Part shown: positions 4,698-29,622 of the stretch, piece after piece
Layout of the letters: each line of letters starts with the position of its first letter
Position numbering within the stretch: the first letter of the stretch is position 1
Origin: Magnetococcales bacterium
Lineage (GTDB): Bacteria; Pseudomonadota; Magnetococcia; Magnetococcales; UBA8363
NCBI GenBank assembly: GCA_002753515.1
Contig: PEAK01000037.1
Location: 1-41,894 of the forward strand
Length of the DNA stretch: 41,894 nt
Direction: 5' to 3'
Translations under genes and position numbers: made by a program
The notes under the pieces: generated by a model
Told to the model about the DNA's origin: nothing
Seen by the model: only the letters and a program-made list of their open reading frames with translations
Databases searched by the model: none

Positions 4698-4728
4698 CCC
4701 GGCCAGGTCGTTGCCTGACCGGGTTTTT
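4698..4728 (+). terminator. Rho-independent terminator after mamD
   Basis: The stem CCCGGCCAGG / CCTGACCGGG (one mismatch, six-base loop) is followed by TTTTT. It lies 69 bases after the mamD stop. It also argues against the TTG at 4711 as start of the next gene, which would sit inside the hairpin. Confidence 0.8.
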
Positions 4729-4746
4729 CCATTTGTGAGGGTGACG

Positions 4747-5637
4747 GTGGGGCGAAAGTTGACCTGTGGGGATTGTGTGATGAAATCGGTGCGGCTGGAT
4801 TTGGCCGTAGCCGCTGGTCAAGCTGTGTTCAATGGTGCCCTCGGTTTTTTGGCAGGGAGCGTGGCCCTGCATGCCTTTGCGTTGCAATTTTTGGGTGATT
4901 TGTTGGGCAAAAGTGTGAATTATCTGGGCATTCGCGCATCCATCCGACCTGCGGATGCCGACTTTCCCTATGGTTATGGCAAGATACAATTTTTGACGGC
5001 CCTTTTTGTCGGATTGGTGTTGCTGGTCGGGTCGATCTCTTTCATGTATTACAATATCATTCATCTGCATGAAGGGAAGGTTGCAGCCCCTTCGGGGTTG
5101 GCAATTGTCGGGGCGCTTTTGACCGGGGCGGTTTGTGAGGTGATGCACCGGTATATGTCCTGTGTGGGGCGTGAAAACAATAACTTGGTCATTACAGCGG
5201 CGGCCTGGGACAATCGTAACGATGCCTTGTCGGCGTTGGCAATCCTGTTGGGGGTGATTGCGGCCTGGTTGGGAATGACCTGGGCCGATCATCTGGTGGC
5301 ATTGGTTGTCTCTTTGTTGGTGATGCGGGCTGGTCTCATGATTGTGACCGATGCGGTCAAAGGATTGTTGGATGCCCGCGCCCCGGAACATATCCTGAAG
5401 GAGGTCGAAGAAATTGTTGATTTTCTCCCGGAGGTTCGATGCAAGAAAAGTTTACGCGGGAGGAGGTTGGGGGACACCTGGGAACTGGATATTGTTTTGG
5501 GTGTTGATCAGGGGCTTTCCGTCACCCAATTGCACCATTTGGAATCCAATTTGATTAAACAAATTTATCAGCAAATATCTCATATTGGACATGTTCATGT
5601 CAGTTTTATCCCAAATTCAGAGGGTGATGCGGTTTGA
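4747..5637 (+). CDS. Third CDF metal transporter of the MamB/MamV type
   Basis: Protein of 296 residues from GTG 4747, which has GAGG six bases upstream; this start keeps an N-terminal CGDC that matches CPEC of MamB and CIVC of MamM. The body aligns well to MamB of this window: RYMSCVGRENNN and AWDNRNDALS correspond to RYQSCVGRENNS and AWDNRSDAIS. Six membrane segments and a C-terminal cytoplasmic domain are expected. In TM2 MamB has DALHSSAD, but here the aligned stretch is FALQFLGD, so His and the first Asp of the metal site are lost while the last Asp stays. It may be a MamV equivalent. It could act as a partner subunit of MamB/MamM rather than an autonomous iron carrier (inference). Confidence 0.85.
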   Translation: MGRKLTCGDCVMKSVRLDLAVAAGQAVFNGALGFLAGSVALHAFALQFLGDLLGKSVNYLGIRASIRPADADFPYGYGKIQFLTALFVGLVLLVGSISFMYYNIIHLHEGKVAAPSGLAIVGALLTGAVCEVMHRYMSCVGRENNNLVITAAAWDNRNDALSALAILLGVIAAWLGMTWADHLVALVVSLLVMRAGLMIVTDAVKGLLDARAPEHILKEVEEIVDFLPEVRCKKSLRGRRLGDTWELDIVLGVDQGLSVTQLHHLESNLIKQIYQQISHIGHVHVSFIPNSEGDAV

Positions 5638-6070: not shown

Positions 6071-6149
6071 CATTGCGGCATTATCCCGTGTTTTATCTGG
6101 GGATTGGCATCTTTAGTTTATATTTAGCAGGTTGTATGGTTTGCCCTTT

Positions 6150-6257
6150 CTATACTGCACGCGGCCATAATTGACGAAGTTGAGATGGTCCATAAGCCTT
6201 GCCCACCTTGCTTTGAGGTACGTTGGAAAATGTCATTTGTGGCTGTGCGCAGTATAG
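6150..6257. repeat. 108-base element bounded by imperfect inverted repeats
   Basis: The left end CTATACTGCACGCGGCC (6150-6166) and the right end GGCTGTGCGCAGTATAG (6241-6257) are complementary at 14 of 17 positions, and weaker complementarity continues inward. The interior shows no gene. It ends 38 bases before the nuclease-like gene at 6296. It could be a miniature transposable element or a regulatory structure; only one copy is seen in the window. Confidence 0.45.
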
Positions 6258-6295
6258 CGGCATTACAAGTAACGCCATAAACAGGGGATACCATC

Positions 6296-6919
6296 ATGTC
6301 GCAGGCCGTAACCTTTGATGATGTTTGGAAAATGTTTCAGGAAACCGCCGCTCAGATGAAAGAGACTGACCGTAAATTCCAAGAAATGGTCCAGGAAGAC
6401 CGTGAGCGAAGAGCAGAACTGGATCGCAAGTTTCAGGAGACCGACCGGCAGATGCAGGAGACCGACCGCTTGGTCAAGGAGGTCAGCCGGCAGGTGGGCA
6501 ACCTGGGGAGTCGCTGGGGTGAATTTGTCGAGGGAATTGTATCTCCCGCCTGTGAGGCCTTGTTTGCGGCTCGTGGCATACTGGTGCGTGAGGTTCATCA
6601 ACGGGTCAAGGCCAAATTGCCCGGCAATCGTCACCTGGAAATTGATCTGCTGGCGGTCGATGGTGACGCGATCGTCCCCATCGAGGTCAAGAGCCGCCTG
6701 CGTGCAGAGGATGTGCGAGATTTCATTCAACGCCTGGGCGAGCTGAAAGAGTTCATGCCCCGTTATGCAGATGCCCGGGTGTTGGGGGCGGTGGCTGGTA
6801 TCGTGGTCGAGGAAGGGGTGGACCGTTACGCCATGAATGAAGGGCTGTTCGTCATCGTTCAGTCTGGTGACAGCGTCAAGTTGGCCAATGATGGAAAATT
6901 TGTACCACGTACTTGGTAG
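6296..6919 (+). CDS. Coiled-coil PD-(D/E)XK-type protein (DUF3782-like)
   Basis: Protein of 207 residues. Residues about 15-75 are heptad-like, with repeated ETDR(K/Q)(F/M)QE units. The C-terminal half has a restriction-endonuclease-like core: EIDLLAVDGDAIVPIEVKSR near 120-139 holds the ExD...ExK pattern of PD-(D/E)XK folds. Such proteins are common as stand-alone genes in cyanobacteria and proteobacteria; their role is unknown and many are thought to be mobile. It has no visible link to magnetosome formation and may have been inserted, as it is flanked by an inverted-repeat element and a microsatellite. Confidence 0.75.
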   Translation: MSQAVTFDDVWKMFQETAAQMKETDRKFQEMVQEDRERRAELDRKFQETDRQMQETDRLVKEVSRQVGNLGSRWGEFVEGIVSPACEALFAARGILVREVHQRVKAKLPGNRHLEIDLLAVDGDAIVPIEVKSRLRAEDVRDFIQRLGELKEFMPRYADARVLGAVAGIVVEEGVDRYAMNEGLFVIVQSGDSVKLANDGKFVPRTW

Positions 6920-7351
6920 CGGATGAGTTTTTGCAAGGTTTCCTTCGGACTTGGGTTCTTCGATTTTCTTTCGATATTCCTACTTTTGGTGTTGACATGG
7001 TACTTGAGACACCATCTAAGGTTCTATTCTATTCTATTCTATTCTATTCTATTCTATTCTATTCTATTCTATTCTATTCTATTCTATATTTTATTGATAA
7101 ATGTGAACACTTATTCATATATTGATATTGAACACAGTTACAAGTGCTAATTTAACAATACATTTAATCGTCAAAAGTTCTTGCGATTCCAACTTTTCAT
7201 TGCTAACATATCCGCCGCTTGACTGGTGTTTGGCAGGTGGTTAAAACAGAGATTAAAGTGGCGCGTACCCTGAACCGATCAACGGAAATGTGACAGATTG
7301 CGGGTTACGTACTGTGGGGCGTGATAGATTTCATGAGAACGGGGGTTGAAT
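6920..7351. other. 432-base A/T-rich intergenic region with a microsatellite
   Basis: This gene-poor stretch is much more A/T-rich than its surroundings. It contains the TTCTA tandem array at 7022-7086. I see no other gene, and the sequence between the array and the LG-rich gene at 7352 probably carries that gene's promoter, though no consensus boxes stand out. Confidence 0.5.
7022..7086 (+). repeat. Pentanucleotide microsatellite (TTCTA)13
   Basis: Thirteen perfect tandem copies of TTCTA fill 65 bases. A perfect five-base repeat of this length is prone to slippage. It lies 265 bases upstream of the LG-rich magnetosome gene at 7352, so copy-number change could alter promoter spacing or leader length. 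Frames running through it encode FYSIL repeats but have no supporting start signals. Confidence 0.95.
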
Positions 7352-9173: not shown

Positions 9174-9355
9174 GTTTAAACCGCAGCTATCTTGGAATGT
9201 GTCGTTATTGTCATCCCCGCGAAAGCGGGGATCCAGAGCCTACCCCCGAATGCCTGAATCGGAGGGGATCTACACACCTTTCCCTGACTTTCTGGATTCC
9301 CGCTTTCGCGGGAATGACGCTGGAAAACTACACATCCCGCGATGGTTGTGGTTTA
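9174..9355 (+). repeat. REP/MITE-like palindromic element, longest copy (copy 4)
   Basis: It begins in the palindrome GCGGTTTAAACCGC and ends in GATGGTTGTGGTTTA. It has both internal palindromes and about 35 extra bases between them compared with copy 3. The last three bases (TTA) form, on the minus strand, the TAA stop of the TPR gene at 9353. Confidence 0.85.
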
Positions 9356-10150
9356 GGTATAACACACGATACGTTCGCCGATGGTCAGCCAACGTTTGAT
9401 CTCTTTGTCGTGGGGTCGTATGGCGGCTGCTTTGCGCCAAGCATCCATGGCTTTGTTTGTCTGATCCAGTTTGGCGTGGGCAATGCCAAGGTAATAGTGC
9501 AAGTGGAACCGGTCCGGATGGGTCAGGGAGGCAGGTGCGAGGACATTGATAGCTTCCTTACGTTTGCCCGACAACAGCAGTGCTTTGCCCAGGAGTGTGG
9601 CAACGCCAGCATCGAAGGGATGACTGGTTTGCAAGGTCCGTAACAGTTCAATGGCTTCATCAAGGCGTCCAAGGCGGGTATAGGCCAAACCCAGATTCAT
9701 ATCGCAGGCATAGTCATCTTGCCCCAGTTCCCGGGCGCGTTGCAGGAATTTGACCGCCTTGGCGTAGCGTTTTTGATTGACGTGCTGGATGCCAACCCTT
9801 TTTTCCAGCGCCCCGGGCATTGTATCGCTCTCCTCCTGGGACTGTGGGGTGACAAAATGGATCCCCTTGATGGTGATGGGATTGGCTTGGGCATCGAGAG
9901 CCGCCAGCAGGCGTTGGGCTGTTGCCGTCTGCCCCATGAACGTGGGATGGGGAGGGGAGGACTCACTTGGCTCCGCAGGTTCATGGTTGGTGTCGGGTGA
10001 GGTAACCGGGGTATGCTTGTAACATCCTTCAGAACTGGCAATGGGTGCTGCCGTGCCAATGGTGGTGGGATATTCAAAAGCCTGATCGGGTTCGGTAGCC
10101 GGGATAGTGGTAAAGGTGAGGGTTTGGTTGGATGTTGAAAGCTTGTTCAT
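9353..10150 (-). CDS. TPR protein, possibly MamA-related
   Basis: Protein of 265 residues. The first 120 residues are Pro/Thr/Ser-rich and probably disordered. TPR-type helices run from about residue 128 to 255: RYAKAVKFLQRARELG, DEAIELLRTLQTSHP, RKEAINVLAPASLTHP and TNKAMDAWRKAAAIRP. There is no signal peptide, so it should be cytoplasmic. MamA is also a cytoplasmic TPR protein that coats magnetosomes, and the location suggests a related scaffold role, but the match is only at domain level. The stop codon lies in the end of a palindromic repeat. Its leader can form a long hairpin (10156-10226). Confidence 0.7.
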   Translation of the reverse strand: MNKLSTSNQTLTFTTIPATEPDQAFEYPTTIGTAAPIASSEGCYKHTPVTSPDTNHEPAEPSESSPPHPTFMGQTATAQRLLAALDAQANPITIKGIHFVTPQSQEESDTMPGALEKRVGIQHVNQKRYAKAVKFLQRARELGQDDYACDMNLGLAYTRLGRLDEAIELLRTLQTSHPFDAGVATLLGKALLLSGKRKEAINVLAPASLTHPDRFHLHYYLGIAHAKLDQTNKAMDAWRKAAAIRPHDKEIKRWLTIGERIVCYT

Positions 10151-25061: not shown

Positions 25062-25715
25062 ATGAGACGCGATGAGCAGGGCGTGAATCCCATCTCGGAG
25101 GTTGGCTTTTTTTTGCATGCCGCACTCCATGTGGTGAAACGGGCTTTTGTTGCGGCTACCGAAAGTTTTAACAATTTTTTTTCAGTCGATCCAGAATTTC
25201 GGGTGCGCTACTATTTGGAACGGGGCACGGAGTATACCCGGCGTGGACGTTATGATGCGGCGGCTACCATGCTGGAAAAGGTGCTTGAGGAGTGGCCCGG
25301 AGATGAGGATACCTTGTTTCATTTGGGGTTTTGTTATCTGAAAATGAATCGGACCCAGGAAGGCATCGAACTGTTGGAACGGGCGGATGCGTTGGGTCGT
25401 GGTGGTACCCGGGTGCGCTCCATCCTGGGGATGGCCTTCCTGCAAACCAAGGAGTATGCCAAGGCGGTGATCGTGTTGGAAAAAGCCTTGGAAGAGGATG
25501 CCCATAACTTCCATCTGAACTATCGAATGGCCCTGGCATTGGATAACCTGGAAAAATATGAGCGCGCTGTGGAATTTTTCACAAAGGCGGCGGCGATACG
25601 TCCGGATGAGCCCAAGGTTTATCGTTCTTTGGGATTTACCCTGGAACAGTTGGGCCGCCATGAGGAATCGGTAGCGCAATTCAAGAAGGCGGCGAACCTG
25701 GAAGAAGGACGCTAA
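25062..25715 (+). CDS. mamA: MamA, TPR magnetosome scaffold
   Basis: Protein of 217 residues, matching MamA (about 217). About five TPR units run from residue 45 to 215: YYLERGTEYTRRGRYDAAAT, LFHLGFCYLKMNRTQEGIEL, RSILGMAFLQTKEYAKAV, NYRMALALDNLEKYERAVEF and YRSLGFTLEQLGRHEESV. It has no signal peptide and acts on the cytosolic face of the magnetosome. MamA forms a coat and is needed for activation of the vesicles. A MamA-like gene follows directly. Confidence 0.95.
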   Translation: MRRDEQGVNPISEVGFFLHAALHVVKRAFVAATESFNNFFSVDPEFRVRYYLERGTEYTRRGRYDAAATMLEKVLEEWPGDEDTLFHLGFCYLKMNRTQEGIELLERADALGRGGTRVRSILGMAFLQTKEYAKAVIVLEKALEEDAHNFHLNYRMALALDNLEKYERAVEFFTKAAAIRPDEPKVYRSLGFTLEQLGRHEESVAQFKKAANLEEGR

Positions 25716-25749: not shown

Positions 25750-28656
25750 TTGACCTGCTTGCATAACGCCGTGTCCGACACTATTGATCCCGTGGATGCG
25801 ACTGACACTTCCAAGTTGGAAGAAAATCTTTGGGCTGCCCGCATGGATCGGATGGATGCCATGATTCAGGGGGCCATGATGAAGCGCCAAGCCATGCTTG
25901 CCCTGGAAACGGCTATCCCTGATGTAAGCCGTGAAAGGATGGGGGAGGCCACCGATAGCGTTTATCGTGCGCTCATGGAAAAGCAGGTGAGTCAGGCTGC
26001 GGGGGATAGGGAGGAGGAGCAGCTTGAAGGGGAGGGTGGAGCGGACGAAGCGGGTGGGTCGAACGAATCGGATTGGGCGGACGCGGAGGGTACGGGGGAA
26101 GAGGATAAGGCGGACAGGGAGGATAGAACGGTTGAAGAGGGTGGAGCGGACGAGGTCATTCTGCAAAACCTAGCAGTTTCACGGACTCCTGATGGTTCTG
26201 GCGCGGTATCGACGAAGAGTGCGAATCGATTGGCGTACACCGCAACGATGCGTGTTCAGGAAAGGTCGGAACCGGCGAACTTGTTGGAGAATGGGGAGGG
26301 GGACAACGAAGAATTGGAGCTGCGATTGCTTCCACGCTCGCATTTGCAATCGGGTGGCAAGGATGAAGATAGCGCACCATCTGTGTTACGGGGTCCGGAT
26401 AGGGGGAGGGGCGAGGCGCTTGAAACACAGAACAGACTGAGTTCGGATGGTGAGGGGGGGGATCAGGAATTCGGGTATGGGGGTGAGGTGGCATTGCCCC
26501 TCAGGAGTCGGGATATTCATGCCGAACCCACGCCTATGGAACTGTTCCAGATCATGTCGCATAAACGGCAGGTGGGCGTAACGCAATCGTTGCAGTCAAG
26601 TCTTGAAATGGGGAACACTTCCGTACGCTGGAACGAGGGTGCGGCACAACGTTTTACTGGTGATGACCCTGTGTTGGAAATGGTGGAAGATATTGTGCCT
26701 GCATCTGCAGGTGGCTTCCCTGGTCTTCCCCATTCGGGGTCCATCGAACAACCGCTCGCGGTCAGGACAATGCCACCTGACCAAAATACCATGGGTCGTT
26801 TGCTCTCCTTGTTCGGGCAATCGCGTCAGCAGGAGACCCGAGTGGCATCTCAAGATGTTCATAATCGAGGGGTGCGGCAGCCGGAAGTTGGACCGGTCGC
26901 GTCTCCAATCCTTGCGGATGACAATATGAGCAGGGCAGTCCCAGTGAGTGAAGGGGGGGCACCTGCCCCTCTGGGGACGGCTGACGAGCCTGCGGATGTA
27001 GAAAAAAACAGATTATCACGCACATTGCATGATTTTCGGAGTCATAGACAGGCGATGATGGTTGCGAGTGCGGTAAAGGCTCCGGGATTGATCCCCGGGT
27101 CGGTGAGTTCCGGGCATACGTTATCCAGGCTTTTGGTTGAGGAGGAAACACTGAATGTTCCGTTTGTTGCAACAGAGGGTGAGGATGCGACAAACGCTGG
27201 TGACTGGAATGATTCACAGGAATTGACGGAAATGCCACCTGGTAGCGCATTGGAGGCAGGAAAGGCCGTTGGCGTTTCTGAATATGCCGTTGCGGTTGGT
27301 TCTCCAGAGGAAATGGCCGGGATTGAAGGATTGGAAGATGCCAAAGCGTTTGGCACTCTGGATGACAATGAGTCCGTCGGCGATTTTGAAGATACCGATA
27401 CAGTTGATTCTCCAGAGGAAATGGCCGGGATTGAAGGATTGGAAGATGCCGAAGCGTTTGGCACTCTGGATGACAATGAGTCCGTCGGCGATTTTGAAGA
27501 AACCGTTGCAGTTGATTCTCTGGAGGAAATGGCTGGGATTGATGTATTGGGTGATGCCGAAGCGTTTGGTACTCTGGAGAGTGGCGCGGCAGATGGCGCT
27601 TTGGAAGAAGTCATTGAGATTGGCGCACGGGATGATGGTGAGGAAAGTGGTGTTTTGGCGGAAATGGAAGGGGTTGGTGTTTGGGAGGATACCGAACTGA
27701 CGGTTGGTATGGAGACCAAGGTTACGCCATCGGTCCCGGACGCCTACCTTCGGCACCATGAAGAAACGGTGTCCGAGCTTATGGCGAACATGACCCTGGA
27801 GGAAGAAAAAGAGTGCGTCCGTGGCGAGGAACCCGACTTGCCCATCCCCGCTGTGACGCGTGGCAGGAGGAGGTTCAGGCAGAAAAAGTTGCCAGAGGGT
27901 TTCTTTACTCAGGATTTTCGGGATTCCCAAGGTGCTGAAGGGGGTGGCCTAGTTGCCGGGGGGTATGGTGTCAAACCGTTGGTTCGGGTTCATAGGTTGG
28001 ATGAATTGCATTTTGCTTGGCGCTCCATGGTGCGTATGTTCGGGAGCTTCTCCGAATCCTTGGTCCGGAAATATTTGGCGTGGACATCCCTGGATGGCAA
28101 AGCTTGGACTGAGTATTACCTGACCCGGGGTCGTAGATCCCTGGCTTTGGGAAGGGTCCATGATGCGGTGTTGTACTTTGGCAGAGCCTTGGAAAAAAAT
28201 GAAGACAATGTGGCCATTTTGGCAGCGTTGGGGCGCTGTCATATCTCTTTGGGATCCTTCGAACAGGCTTTGAATTATTTGGAAAAGGCCAAGGAACGGG
28301 ATCAAGCGGGTGGGGCGTGGCTGGACGCTGACCTGATCGTGGCCTATAGTGGATGCCAGATCTTTGATCAGGCGGAAAGATTGCTGCGACATGGCCTGGA
28401 TGCAGATCGAAGTGCTTCAAATGATCGCTCTGCCTTATGGTTTCAGCTCGCGGAACTCCTGGCGCGTCAGGAGCGCCACGCCGATGCCGTCGAGGCCTAT
28501 CGTGAGGCTGTGGCCCTCAAACCGACACGTCGGGATTATCAGCGGGCGTTGGGGTTCGCTCTGCAAATGGTGGGGCAAAGCAAAGAGGCGGTTGCCCATT
28601 TGAAAATGGCTGAATCTGTGGATGATAGGGAGTTGACCCCTGGAAATTTGGGGTAG
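25750..28656 (+). CDS. Large MamA-like protein with a long acidic N-terminal region
   Basis: Protein of up to 968 residues; the TTG at 25750 is the furthest start, and GTG 25771 or ATG 25843 are possible because no clear ribosome binding site decides. Residues 1 to about 740 are low-complexity, Glu/Asp/Gly-rich and likely disordered, with three 36-residue repeats at about 518-620. Residues 750-965 resemble MamA: a lead-in FAWRSMVRMFGSFSESLV parallels VVKRAFVAATESFNNF of MamA, then EYYLTRGRRSLALGR and further TPR units (AEAYREAVALKP-like). It lies 34 bases after mamA, so it arose probably by duplication with a new extension. An acidic region might bind iron or MamK; this is inference. I know no named mam gene like it. 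Confidence 0.8.
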   Translation: MTCLHNAVSDTIDPVDATDTSKLEENLWAARMDRMDAMIQGAMMKRQAMLALETAIPDVSRERMGEATDSVYRALMEKQVSQAAGDREEEQLEGEGGADEAGGSNESDWADAEGTGEEDKADREDRTVEEGGADEVILQNLAVSRTPDGSGAVSTKSANRLAYTATMRVQERSEPANLLENGEGDNEELELRLLPRSHLQSGGKDEDSAPSVLRGPDRGRGEALETQNRLSSDGEGGDQEFGYGGEVALPLRSRDIHAEPTPMELFQIMSHKRQVGVTQSLQSSLEMGNTSVRWNEGAAQRFTGDDPVLEMVEDIVPASAGGFPGLPHSGSIEQPLAVRTMPPDQNTMGRLLSLFGQSRQQETRVASQDVHNRGVRQPEVGPVASPILADDNMSRAVPVSEGGAPAPLGTADEPADVEKNRLSRTLHDFRSHRQAMMVASAVKAPGLIPGSVSSGHTLSRLLVEEETLNVPFVATEGEDATNAGDWNDSQELTEMPPGSALEAGKAVGVSEYAVAVGSPEEMAGIEGLEDAKAFGTLDDNESVGDFEDTDTVDSPEEMAGIEGLEDAEAFGTLDDNESVGDFEETVAVDSLEEMAGIDVLGDAEAFGTLESGAADGALEEVIEIGARDDGEESGVLAEMEGVGVWEDTELTVGMETKVTPSVPDAYLRHHEETVSELMANMTLEEEKECVRGEEPDLPIPAVTRGRRRFRQKKLPEGFFTQDFRDSQGAEGGGLVAGGYGVKPLVRVHRLDELHFAWRSMVRMFGSFSESLVRKYLAWTSLDGKAWTEYYLTRGRRSLALGRVHDAVLYFGRALEKNEDNVAILAALGRCHISLGSFEQALNYLEKAKERDQAGGAWLDADLIVAYSGCQIFDQAERLLRHGLDADRSASNDRSALWFQLAELLARQERHADAVEAYREAVALKPTRRDYQRALGFALQMVGQSKEAVAHLKMAESVDDRELTPGNLG
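27301..27582 (+). repeat. 108-base tandem coding repeat (about 2.6 copies)
   Basis: The unit starting TCTCCAGAGGAAATGGCC recurs at 27301 and 27409, and as TCTCTGGAGGAAATGGCT at 27517. Copies 1 and 2 are nearly identical and copy 3 is more diverged and incomplete. The unit encodes 36 residues beginning SPEEMAGIEGLEDA and ending near DNESVGDFE. Confidence 0.9.
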
Positions 28657-28695: not shown

Positions 28696-29622
28696 GTGGC
28701 CGAACATTCAGACGATCATTTTGAACAGTTGGGCGGGTTAGGTCCAGAGACGAGCAATTCGGAACGTGTGCGCCGGATGAAACGTTTGCTGCGCCAATTG
28801 TACAAGGATGAGTTTTCGGGCAGTCGCCTGCGTTTGCCTCCGTTCAAGGTAAAAGGTTTGGTTGTATTTTTGTCGCTTCTGTCAATAGTTATTTTTGGCG
28901 TGACGACTCTTTATAATTTTAATATATTTATTACATTTGAAGAAAAAATTTTATCGGCCAAGGGGCATATCCAAGACGCTTTGCAGCGGCGGGCCAACCT
29001 GTTCACCAACTTGATCAATCTGACACTGAATCAGGCCGCCTTGGAGCAGGAGGTGTTTCGGCACGTTGCCGATGTGCGGGCGGCCATGGCGGGGCAGGAA
29101 CGGGTGAGGAAAGATGGGGGGGGAGCAGGAGACAAACAGCCGGGGGCGGGTGATTCCAAACCGGGTGAGTCGACCGGGGCGGCAACCAGGGCACAGGGAT
29201 TGGCAGCCGCTCTGTCTGGAATGGAAGGGGGCTCTTCCATGGCGAAACTCATGGCGGTGGTGGAGCAATATCCTGAAATCAAATCATCGACCACCTATCA
29301 GCAACTCATGGATAAATTGGTGGAGATTGAAGACCGTATCATTTCACGTCGGGATGGTTATAACGAGGATGTACGCGTGTACAACACCCTGATCACCTCG
29401 TTTCCCTGGTACATCCTGGCCCATATTACCGGATTTAAACGTTACGAATATTTCACCATGGATTCCATGAATCAGAGCGACAAGCAGGTGTTGTCCAACC
29501 TTTCCTCCATGGTGTTTCAGCGCCTGCTTCCACTGGCTCCAGGTCAAAAACAGGATGCCAGCCGGAAAGAGATCCAACAGGGTGATAGCAAAGCGCCTGC
29601 CAATAAAGAAAGCGTGCCGTGA
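28696..29622 (+). CDS. mamQ: MamQ, LemA-family magnetosome membrane protein
   Basis: Protein of 308 residues starting with GTG 28696. After a cytoplasmic, arginine-rich segment (RVRRMKRLLRQLYKDEF) comes one membrane helix near 56-78, then a LemA-type helical domain with QRRANLFTNLINLTLNQAAL near 96-115. MamQ is required for magnetosome membrane formation. A Gly/Lys/Pro-rich insertion near 135-170 makes it longer than the Magnetospirillum form (about 270). The stop overlaps the mamB start (GTGA). Confidence 0.9.
   Translation: MAEHSDDHFEQLGGLGPETSNSERVRRMKRLLRQLYKDEFSGSRLRLPPFKVKGLVVFLSLLSIVIFGVTTLYNFNIFITFEEKILSAKGHIQDALQRRANLFTNLINLTLNQAALEQEVFRHVADVRAAMAGQERVRKDGGGAGDKQPGAGDSKPGESTGAATRAQGLAAALSGMEGGSSMAKLMAVVEQYPEIKSSTTYQQLMDKLVEIEDRIISRRDGYNEDVRVYNTLITSFPWYILAHITGFKRYEYFTMDSMNQSDKQVLSNLSSMVFQRLLPLAPGQKQDASRKEIQQGDSKAPANKESVP

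Follow-up and report, generated by a model that had tools for sequence, protein, structure and literature searches.

The gene between mamA and mamQ in this stretch (the window, that is, the whole 41,894 nucleotides analysed) encodes a MamA paralog in which a MamA-type solenoid is joined to a long, acidic and predicted disordered N-terminal arm. The best explanation that we can offer for this MamA-like arm protein, at roughly even odds and judging from sequence and structural models, is a cytosolic MamA-derived scaffold whose arm would link magnetosomes to partners. The frame of up to 968 residues set out in the preliminary description is real and coding: it is open at 25750-28656 on the forward strand (968 aa counted from TTG), and mamM, mamO, mamP, mamB, mamS and mamT flank it, all on the same strand. 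GTG 25771 is the likeliest start (961 aa), since aligned relatives begin with the residues VSD or slightly 5′ of a conserved EE-LW motif. Comparison with the nearest relative (G001) finds third codon positions most changed in the arm gene, with dN/dS of 0.52 for the arm, 0.19 for the C-terminal domain and 0.11 for mamA, and the frame is also kept open in more than 12 other genomes; the frame is thus coding, with a fast-evolving arm.

Table 1. Features of the MamA-like arm gene and its immediate neighbours, in window coordinates
Feature	Position	Strand	Basis
mamA, presumed parent paralog and partner	25062..25715	+	NF040959, 212 bits, above cut-off
MamA-like arm gene (long N-terminal arm)	25771..28656	+	961 aa from GTG 25771; frame open from TTG 25750; coding by dN/dS
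Conserved island I, predicted helix aa 13-47, TSKLEENLWAARMDRMDAMIQGAMMKRQAMLALET	25807..25911	+	alignments; pLDDT ~80
First acidic stretch, aa 61-120, net charge -14 per 60 residues	25951..26130	+	composition
Conserved island II, aa 240-276, LPLRSRDIHAEPTPMELFQIMSHKRQ..., helix 255-276	26488..26598	+	alignment, AlphaFold
Conserved island III, aa 330-365, PLAVRT...GRLLSLFGQSRQ, weak helix 338-365	26758..26865	+	alignment, AlphaFold
Conserved island IV, aa 408-441, NRLSRTLHDFRSHRQAMM...PGLI, helix 408-434	26992..27093	+	alignment, AlphaFold
Second acidic stretch, aa 481-660, net charge -48, contains tandem repeat	27211..27750	+	composition, repeat search
MamA-type lead-in helix, aa 742-772	27994..28086	+	profile alignment, order-wide profile search, AlphaFold
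TPR solenoid, five helix pairs, aa 773-955	28087..28635	+	Pfam TPR; AlphaFold pLDDT mostly 74-92; Foldseek matches to MamA
mamQ, downstream neighbour, same strand	28696..29622	+	NF040966, 248 bits vs cut-off 250

The C-terminal ~220 residues of the arm protein form a MamA-type solenoid. Residues 751-958 (TTG numbering) match positions 1-203 of 204 of the NCBIfam MamA model NF040959 at 69.4 bits, below its equivalog cut-off of 200 bits, while the second-best NCBIfam model reaches 35 bits; within the window genome, mamA is its closest match other than itself (E 1e-13; runner-up E 1e-4). That the TPR end resembles MamA and shares its lead-in, as first described, is borne out by profile comparison at two levels. 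Aligning the arm family with 17 MamA proteins in hhalign placed 208 columns in register, lead-in included (E 1.5e-50), and searching 48 genomes of the order with the arm-family profile separated three tiers: the arm family itself (283-318 bits), MamA (135-177 bits, beginning at column 1-5), and the remaining TPR proteins (at most 94 bits, most from column 30 or later). Because other TPR proteins nearly all start later, MamA alone shares the full lead-in with the arm family. Against the MamA profile, members from family f9 score 182-194 bits and form a bridge to members of the window genus at 57-101 bits; the versions in f5 and f12 are very diverged (12-61 bits), with no matching stretch reported in G025 and G030. 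AlphaFold models of the C-terminal domain from seven sequences are helical solenoids (mean pLDDT 81) whose helices run from H26-36 to H201-213, a lead-in followed by five TPRs. In Foldseek searches of the PDB, designed TPRs come first, and the top-ranking natural proteins are the MamA of AMB-1, MSR-1, M. bavaricum and RS-1 (TM to target reaching 0.86), with an rmsd of 2.1-4.3 Å between model and MamA crystal structures. By hhalign, C-domain model and Foldseek, then, the MamA lead-in and five TPRs are all present.

An unrelated TPR protein that came to lie in the operon by chance is a highly improbable reading. It draws on a thin margin when the MamA profile is run on the window genome alone (65 bits for the arm protein, 62 for a generic TPR protein) and on a topology test that disfavours, but does not reject, a common group of genus members and generic TPR proteins (p-AU 0.09). 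Against it stand the shared lead-in and in-register alignment, the intermediates in f9, and the Foldseek ranking. The tree is consistent with kinship to MamA: f1 and f9 members form one clade (support 97/98), ten generic TPR proteins form a separate one (96/98), and a single origin for the f1, f9 and f12 members is not rejected (p-AU 0.345). The proposed paralogy with MamA is therefore upheld by the aligned profiles, the scores across the order, the fold and the place of the gene, with which the tree agrees, and the TPR part was not found to be closer to unrelated TPR proteins; MamA is its best relative.

The arm protein shares with MamA (NF040959; PDB 3AS4, 3AS8, 3VTX, 4XI0) its lead-in helix and five TPRs, its operon and its neighbours, yet from its sequence it is not a second MamA, because it falls far short of the MamA cut-off and lacks three functional residues of MamA: where AMB-1 MamA has R50, D79 and D159, the window protein has L, N and A, respectively. 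R50 and D79 are lost in nearly all arm family members (some MamA rows also lack R50), whereas D159, which lies on the concave side of MamA and is present in 18/18 MamA rows, is lost in most genus members, where it is variable, and kept in f9. In MamA, which self-assembles and coats the magnetosome vesicle (PMC3905215, PMC4482739), the R50-D79 salt bridge stabilises the N-terminal domain and is tied to complex formation (PMC3905215); the PDB includes entries for R50E and D159K mutants. With 961 aa against ~217-226 aa, the arm protein is also ~4.4 times longer than MamA and carries a large disordered acidic arm. Charge-driven docking of this arm into a positive groove of MamA was considered but set aside, since the MamA of the window has a net charge of -4. 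Another TPR paralog that matches the MamA model lies near feoAB (window 9353-10150, reverse strand; 265 aa, 71.9 bits to NF040959) and is probably the published MamA-like paralog of MC-1 and IT-1. Unlike the arm protein, it lacks the MamA lead-in, forms its own tree clade (100/99) and has a different place in the island. The window also codes for a third CDF transporter (4711-5637, forward strand), of MamB/MamV type, with 289.6 bits to MamB, below the cut-off of 350.

The arm combines acidic, rapidly changing sequence with short conserved helices. Over residues 1-736 it has a net charge of -91, with 20.7% D+E and 8.3% K+R; the early estimate of about 740 Glu/Asp-rich residues thus held for length and overall composition, but the acid is concentrated in the two acidic stretches of Table 1 and does not extend throughout. 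The second of these contains a tandem repeat of a 108-bp unit (27266-27578, 2.9 copies). Across the family, arms range from 460 to 880 aa, repeat units vary between genomes, and arm dN/dS rises to ~1 in repeats; f9 arms are nearly neutral overall. A full-length AlphaFold model predicts disorder (pLDDT ~30) outside five short helices, the first four of which coincide with islands I-IV, conserved across the genus, and the fifth of which (657-674) is weak. Island I, with the consensus EExxWxxRMxRMDxMIxxxMMKR, is also recognisable in f9 as eeqrWldRLaRtDkLm..vM (WLDRLxRTDxLMxxVM); outside island I, arm helices could not be recognised between families. All four islands fit a common pattern, x-Phi-Phi-x-x-Phi-x-x-x-R, which occurs 3-4 times in each genus member (mean in shuffled sequences ~0.1) and is found in no f9 or f12 member. 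Because the pattern was picked after the islands had been seen, its positions are homologous and it is absent from f9 and f12, we treat it as a lead only. We found no hydrophobic stretch in the arm protein that could serve as a membrane helix or signal peptide (highest 19-residue hydropathy 1.14), so it is presumably cytosolic.

Homologues of 610-1106 aa occupy the same slot in 4/14 Magnetococcales families sampled (mamA-mamQ intervals read in 40 loci). They were recognised as large frames with a MamA-type C-terminus that lie between mamA and mamQ or, on contigs that break off and in clusters without mamQ, next to one of the two genes. The large gene is present in 7/8 genomes of f1, 5/5 of f9 and 3/3 of f12, and in three f5 genomes the frame follows mamA with its hook cut or incomplete; the G004 copy of the gene is cut off by the end of its contig. 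It is absent from the genomes read in f2, f4, f7, f8, f10, f11, f13 and f14, where mamQ follows mamA directly or nearly so, and from one member of the window genus (G006), whose cluster has the layout of the gene-lacking families; the assemblies G009 (f3), G012 (f6) and G022 (f5) gave no mamA-level match. Because most other families hold a mamAB cluster without it, we class the gene, on these comparisons, as accessory. Among 398 genomes of the phylum none outside Magnetococcales gave family-level scores, and a scan of 84,980 species, seeded by a genus-only alignment with a reach of close relatives only, returned the Magnetococcales MAGs nWRX3bin12, C5_bin.1, nHA5abin3, nWRX3bin6, DCbin2 and DCbin4 and one generic TPR match. 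Homologues away from magnetosome genes, which the preliminary description had named as speaking against its reading, were not found in the loci and phylum genomes searched.

Several clusters depart from the common layout. In the G006 cluster (L040), mam proteins are only ~39-54% identical to those of the window and the arrangement is f7-type, with a mamM-mamO frame as for mamN, a maq1-like gene and the arm gene absent; this identity and layout suggest that the cluster was replaced by transfer. In G007, three frames of 355, 832 and 242 aa (L041:8860-13232) separate mamA from the arm gene. The main cluster of G002 (DCbin4; L035, L069, L071) lacks mamQ where it is expected, and its arm gene, altered at the C-terminal end, continues into mamB; the genome has additional mamA copies at other loci, one of them together with mamK and mamQ.

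One genome in our sample (G018) we take to be, almost certainly, that of Magnetococcus marinus MC-1, and its 1025-aa frame matches the MamA profile over positions 15-216 at 52 bits. In MC-1 and Magnetofaba australis IT-1 a 'HP' (hypothetical protein) is shown between mamA and mamQ, the slot of the window gene (PMC3934378), and the 1025-aa frame would then be this 'HP'; its C-terminus and arm have diverged strongly from those of the window protein. PMC6783814 reports that UR-1, in which magnetosomes do not form chains, lacks a 'mamA-like gene inside the mamAB cluster', and this gene is probably the arm gene. The statement that no named mam protein has this architecture therefore stands as regards a name, while the slot was already known as 'HP' and probably as 'mamA-like'; the passages searched in PMC3934378 and PMC6783814 describe no arm or domain layout for either. 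The architecture, the four-family spread and the conserved arm helices appear to be undescribed in the open-access literature searched.

Long low-complexity proteins occupy the mamE-mamK interval (the mamJ position) in most Magnetococcales families (L142, L143, L144, L146-L151), and share a conserved Gly-rich hydrophobic C-terminus, VESLGxGIxNxLGDMVG...GGxNIVxGTxGxVTMPVxG; in one family the protein at this position should be maq1. They form a candidate MamJ counterpart. The idea that the window genus had lost this protein was rejected, as a copy was found on another contig (C118, L164:7247-9472, reverse strand) directly before mamK-2 (6100-7137), and a 108-aa protein with the VEDLGTGLFNVLGDVVGG motif of the long mamJ-position proteins lies downstream of mamK-2 (L165:4020-4343, forward strand). 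The model NF040962 was tried as a MamJ model and rejected; it is not MamJ. For the arm protein NCBIfam returned no match to MamJ, a result that depends on that library containing a MamJ model.

In the reading that we favour, MamA was probably duplicated beside mamA within Magnetococcales, and the diverged paralog retained the lead-in helix and five-TPR hook and acquired a cytosolic disordered arm of ~740 residues. MamA-type solenoid contacts would then hold the hook at the cytosolic surface of the magnetosome, either within the MamA coat or beside it, while the acidic arm would point outward as a flexible multivalent linker, with its short conserved helices as putative docking motifs for magnetosome or magnetoskeleton proteins and its hypervariable acidic repeats as spacers. 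Because the R50-D79 bridge and D159 are mostly lost in the genus, it may be that the hook does not become part of this coat. Tentatively, this picture extends to a lineage-specific scaffold in which a MamA copy became a solenoid anchor with a disordered arm and up to four x-Phi-Phi-x-x-Phi-x-x-x-R docking helices, holding the magnetosomes of these cocci together or to the cytoskeleton. Lineage-specificity is shared with Mad20/23/25/26 of deep-branching magnetotactic bacteria (PMC12748827), which organise magnetosomes but are coiled-coil or HEAT proteins of unrelated architecture.

Another reading, which we consider unlikely, is that the arm protein takes the place of MamJ in these cocci and acts as a specific adaptor between magnetosomes and MamK filaments. 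MamJ has an acidic, repetitive, hypervariable middle between conserved ends (PMC10653835), and the arm protein has central acidic repeats and conserved ends in the same layout; like MamJ, and like LimJ and Mg-1g50 of MV-1, it is predicted to be cytosolic. MamJ-like adaptors are predicted outside magnetospirilla (PMC10653835), mamJ and mamY are reported absent in the order, with another chain mechanism postulated, and the lack of the 'mamA-like' gene in UR-1 goes with magnetosomes outside chains (PMC6783814). Yet MamJ has no TPR solenoid and its gene lies between mamE and mamK, not between mamA and mamQ; in most families the mamE-mamK position is held by a different low-complexity protein with a Gly-rich C-terminus. 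Mg-1g50, for its part, lacks acidic repeats. Both proteins occur in f9 and f12, most other families have mamK and no arm gene, and simple replacement is weakened because a protein of the mamJ-position type adjoins the second mamK in the window genome.

That the arm is a weakly selected passenger, or a passive steric spacer without specific partners, on a MamA duplicate is likewise unlikely. The high dN/dS of the arm and repeats and the variation in arm length and repeat units are what such a spacer would display, but the helical islands are conserved in the same order in genus members, island I is common to another family, and the frame is kept open in four families. An iron- or mineral-binding role, in which the arm would influence iron supply or the growth of crystals, would fit the acidic stretches (net -48 over aa 481-660), and the acidic MamJ was also first suspected in biomineralisation (PMC12748827). 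This role is improbable, and direct contact with crystals, one of the functions originally suggested, is unlikely because no hydrophobic signal peptide or membrane helix is available to reach the lumen; the conserved parts, moreover, are Arg-containing helices and not acidic repeats, and the f9 arms are nearly neutral overall.

If the scaffold reading is true, a copy of MamA has been converted from a coat protein into a long linker. The literature has yet to explain how cocci that lack MamJ and MamY arrange their magnetosomes (PMC6783814, PMC10653835), and the arm family offers a concrete candidate. The gene is very probably present in the cultured strain MC-1, with the hook, islands I-IV and the acidic repeats as testable parts, and its presence and absence across the order permit comparison with magnetosome arrangement.
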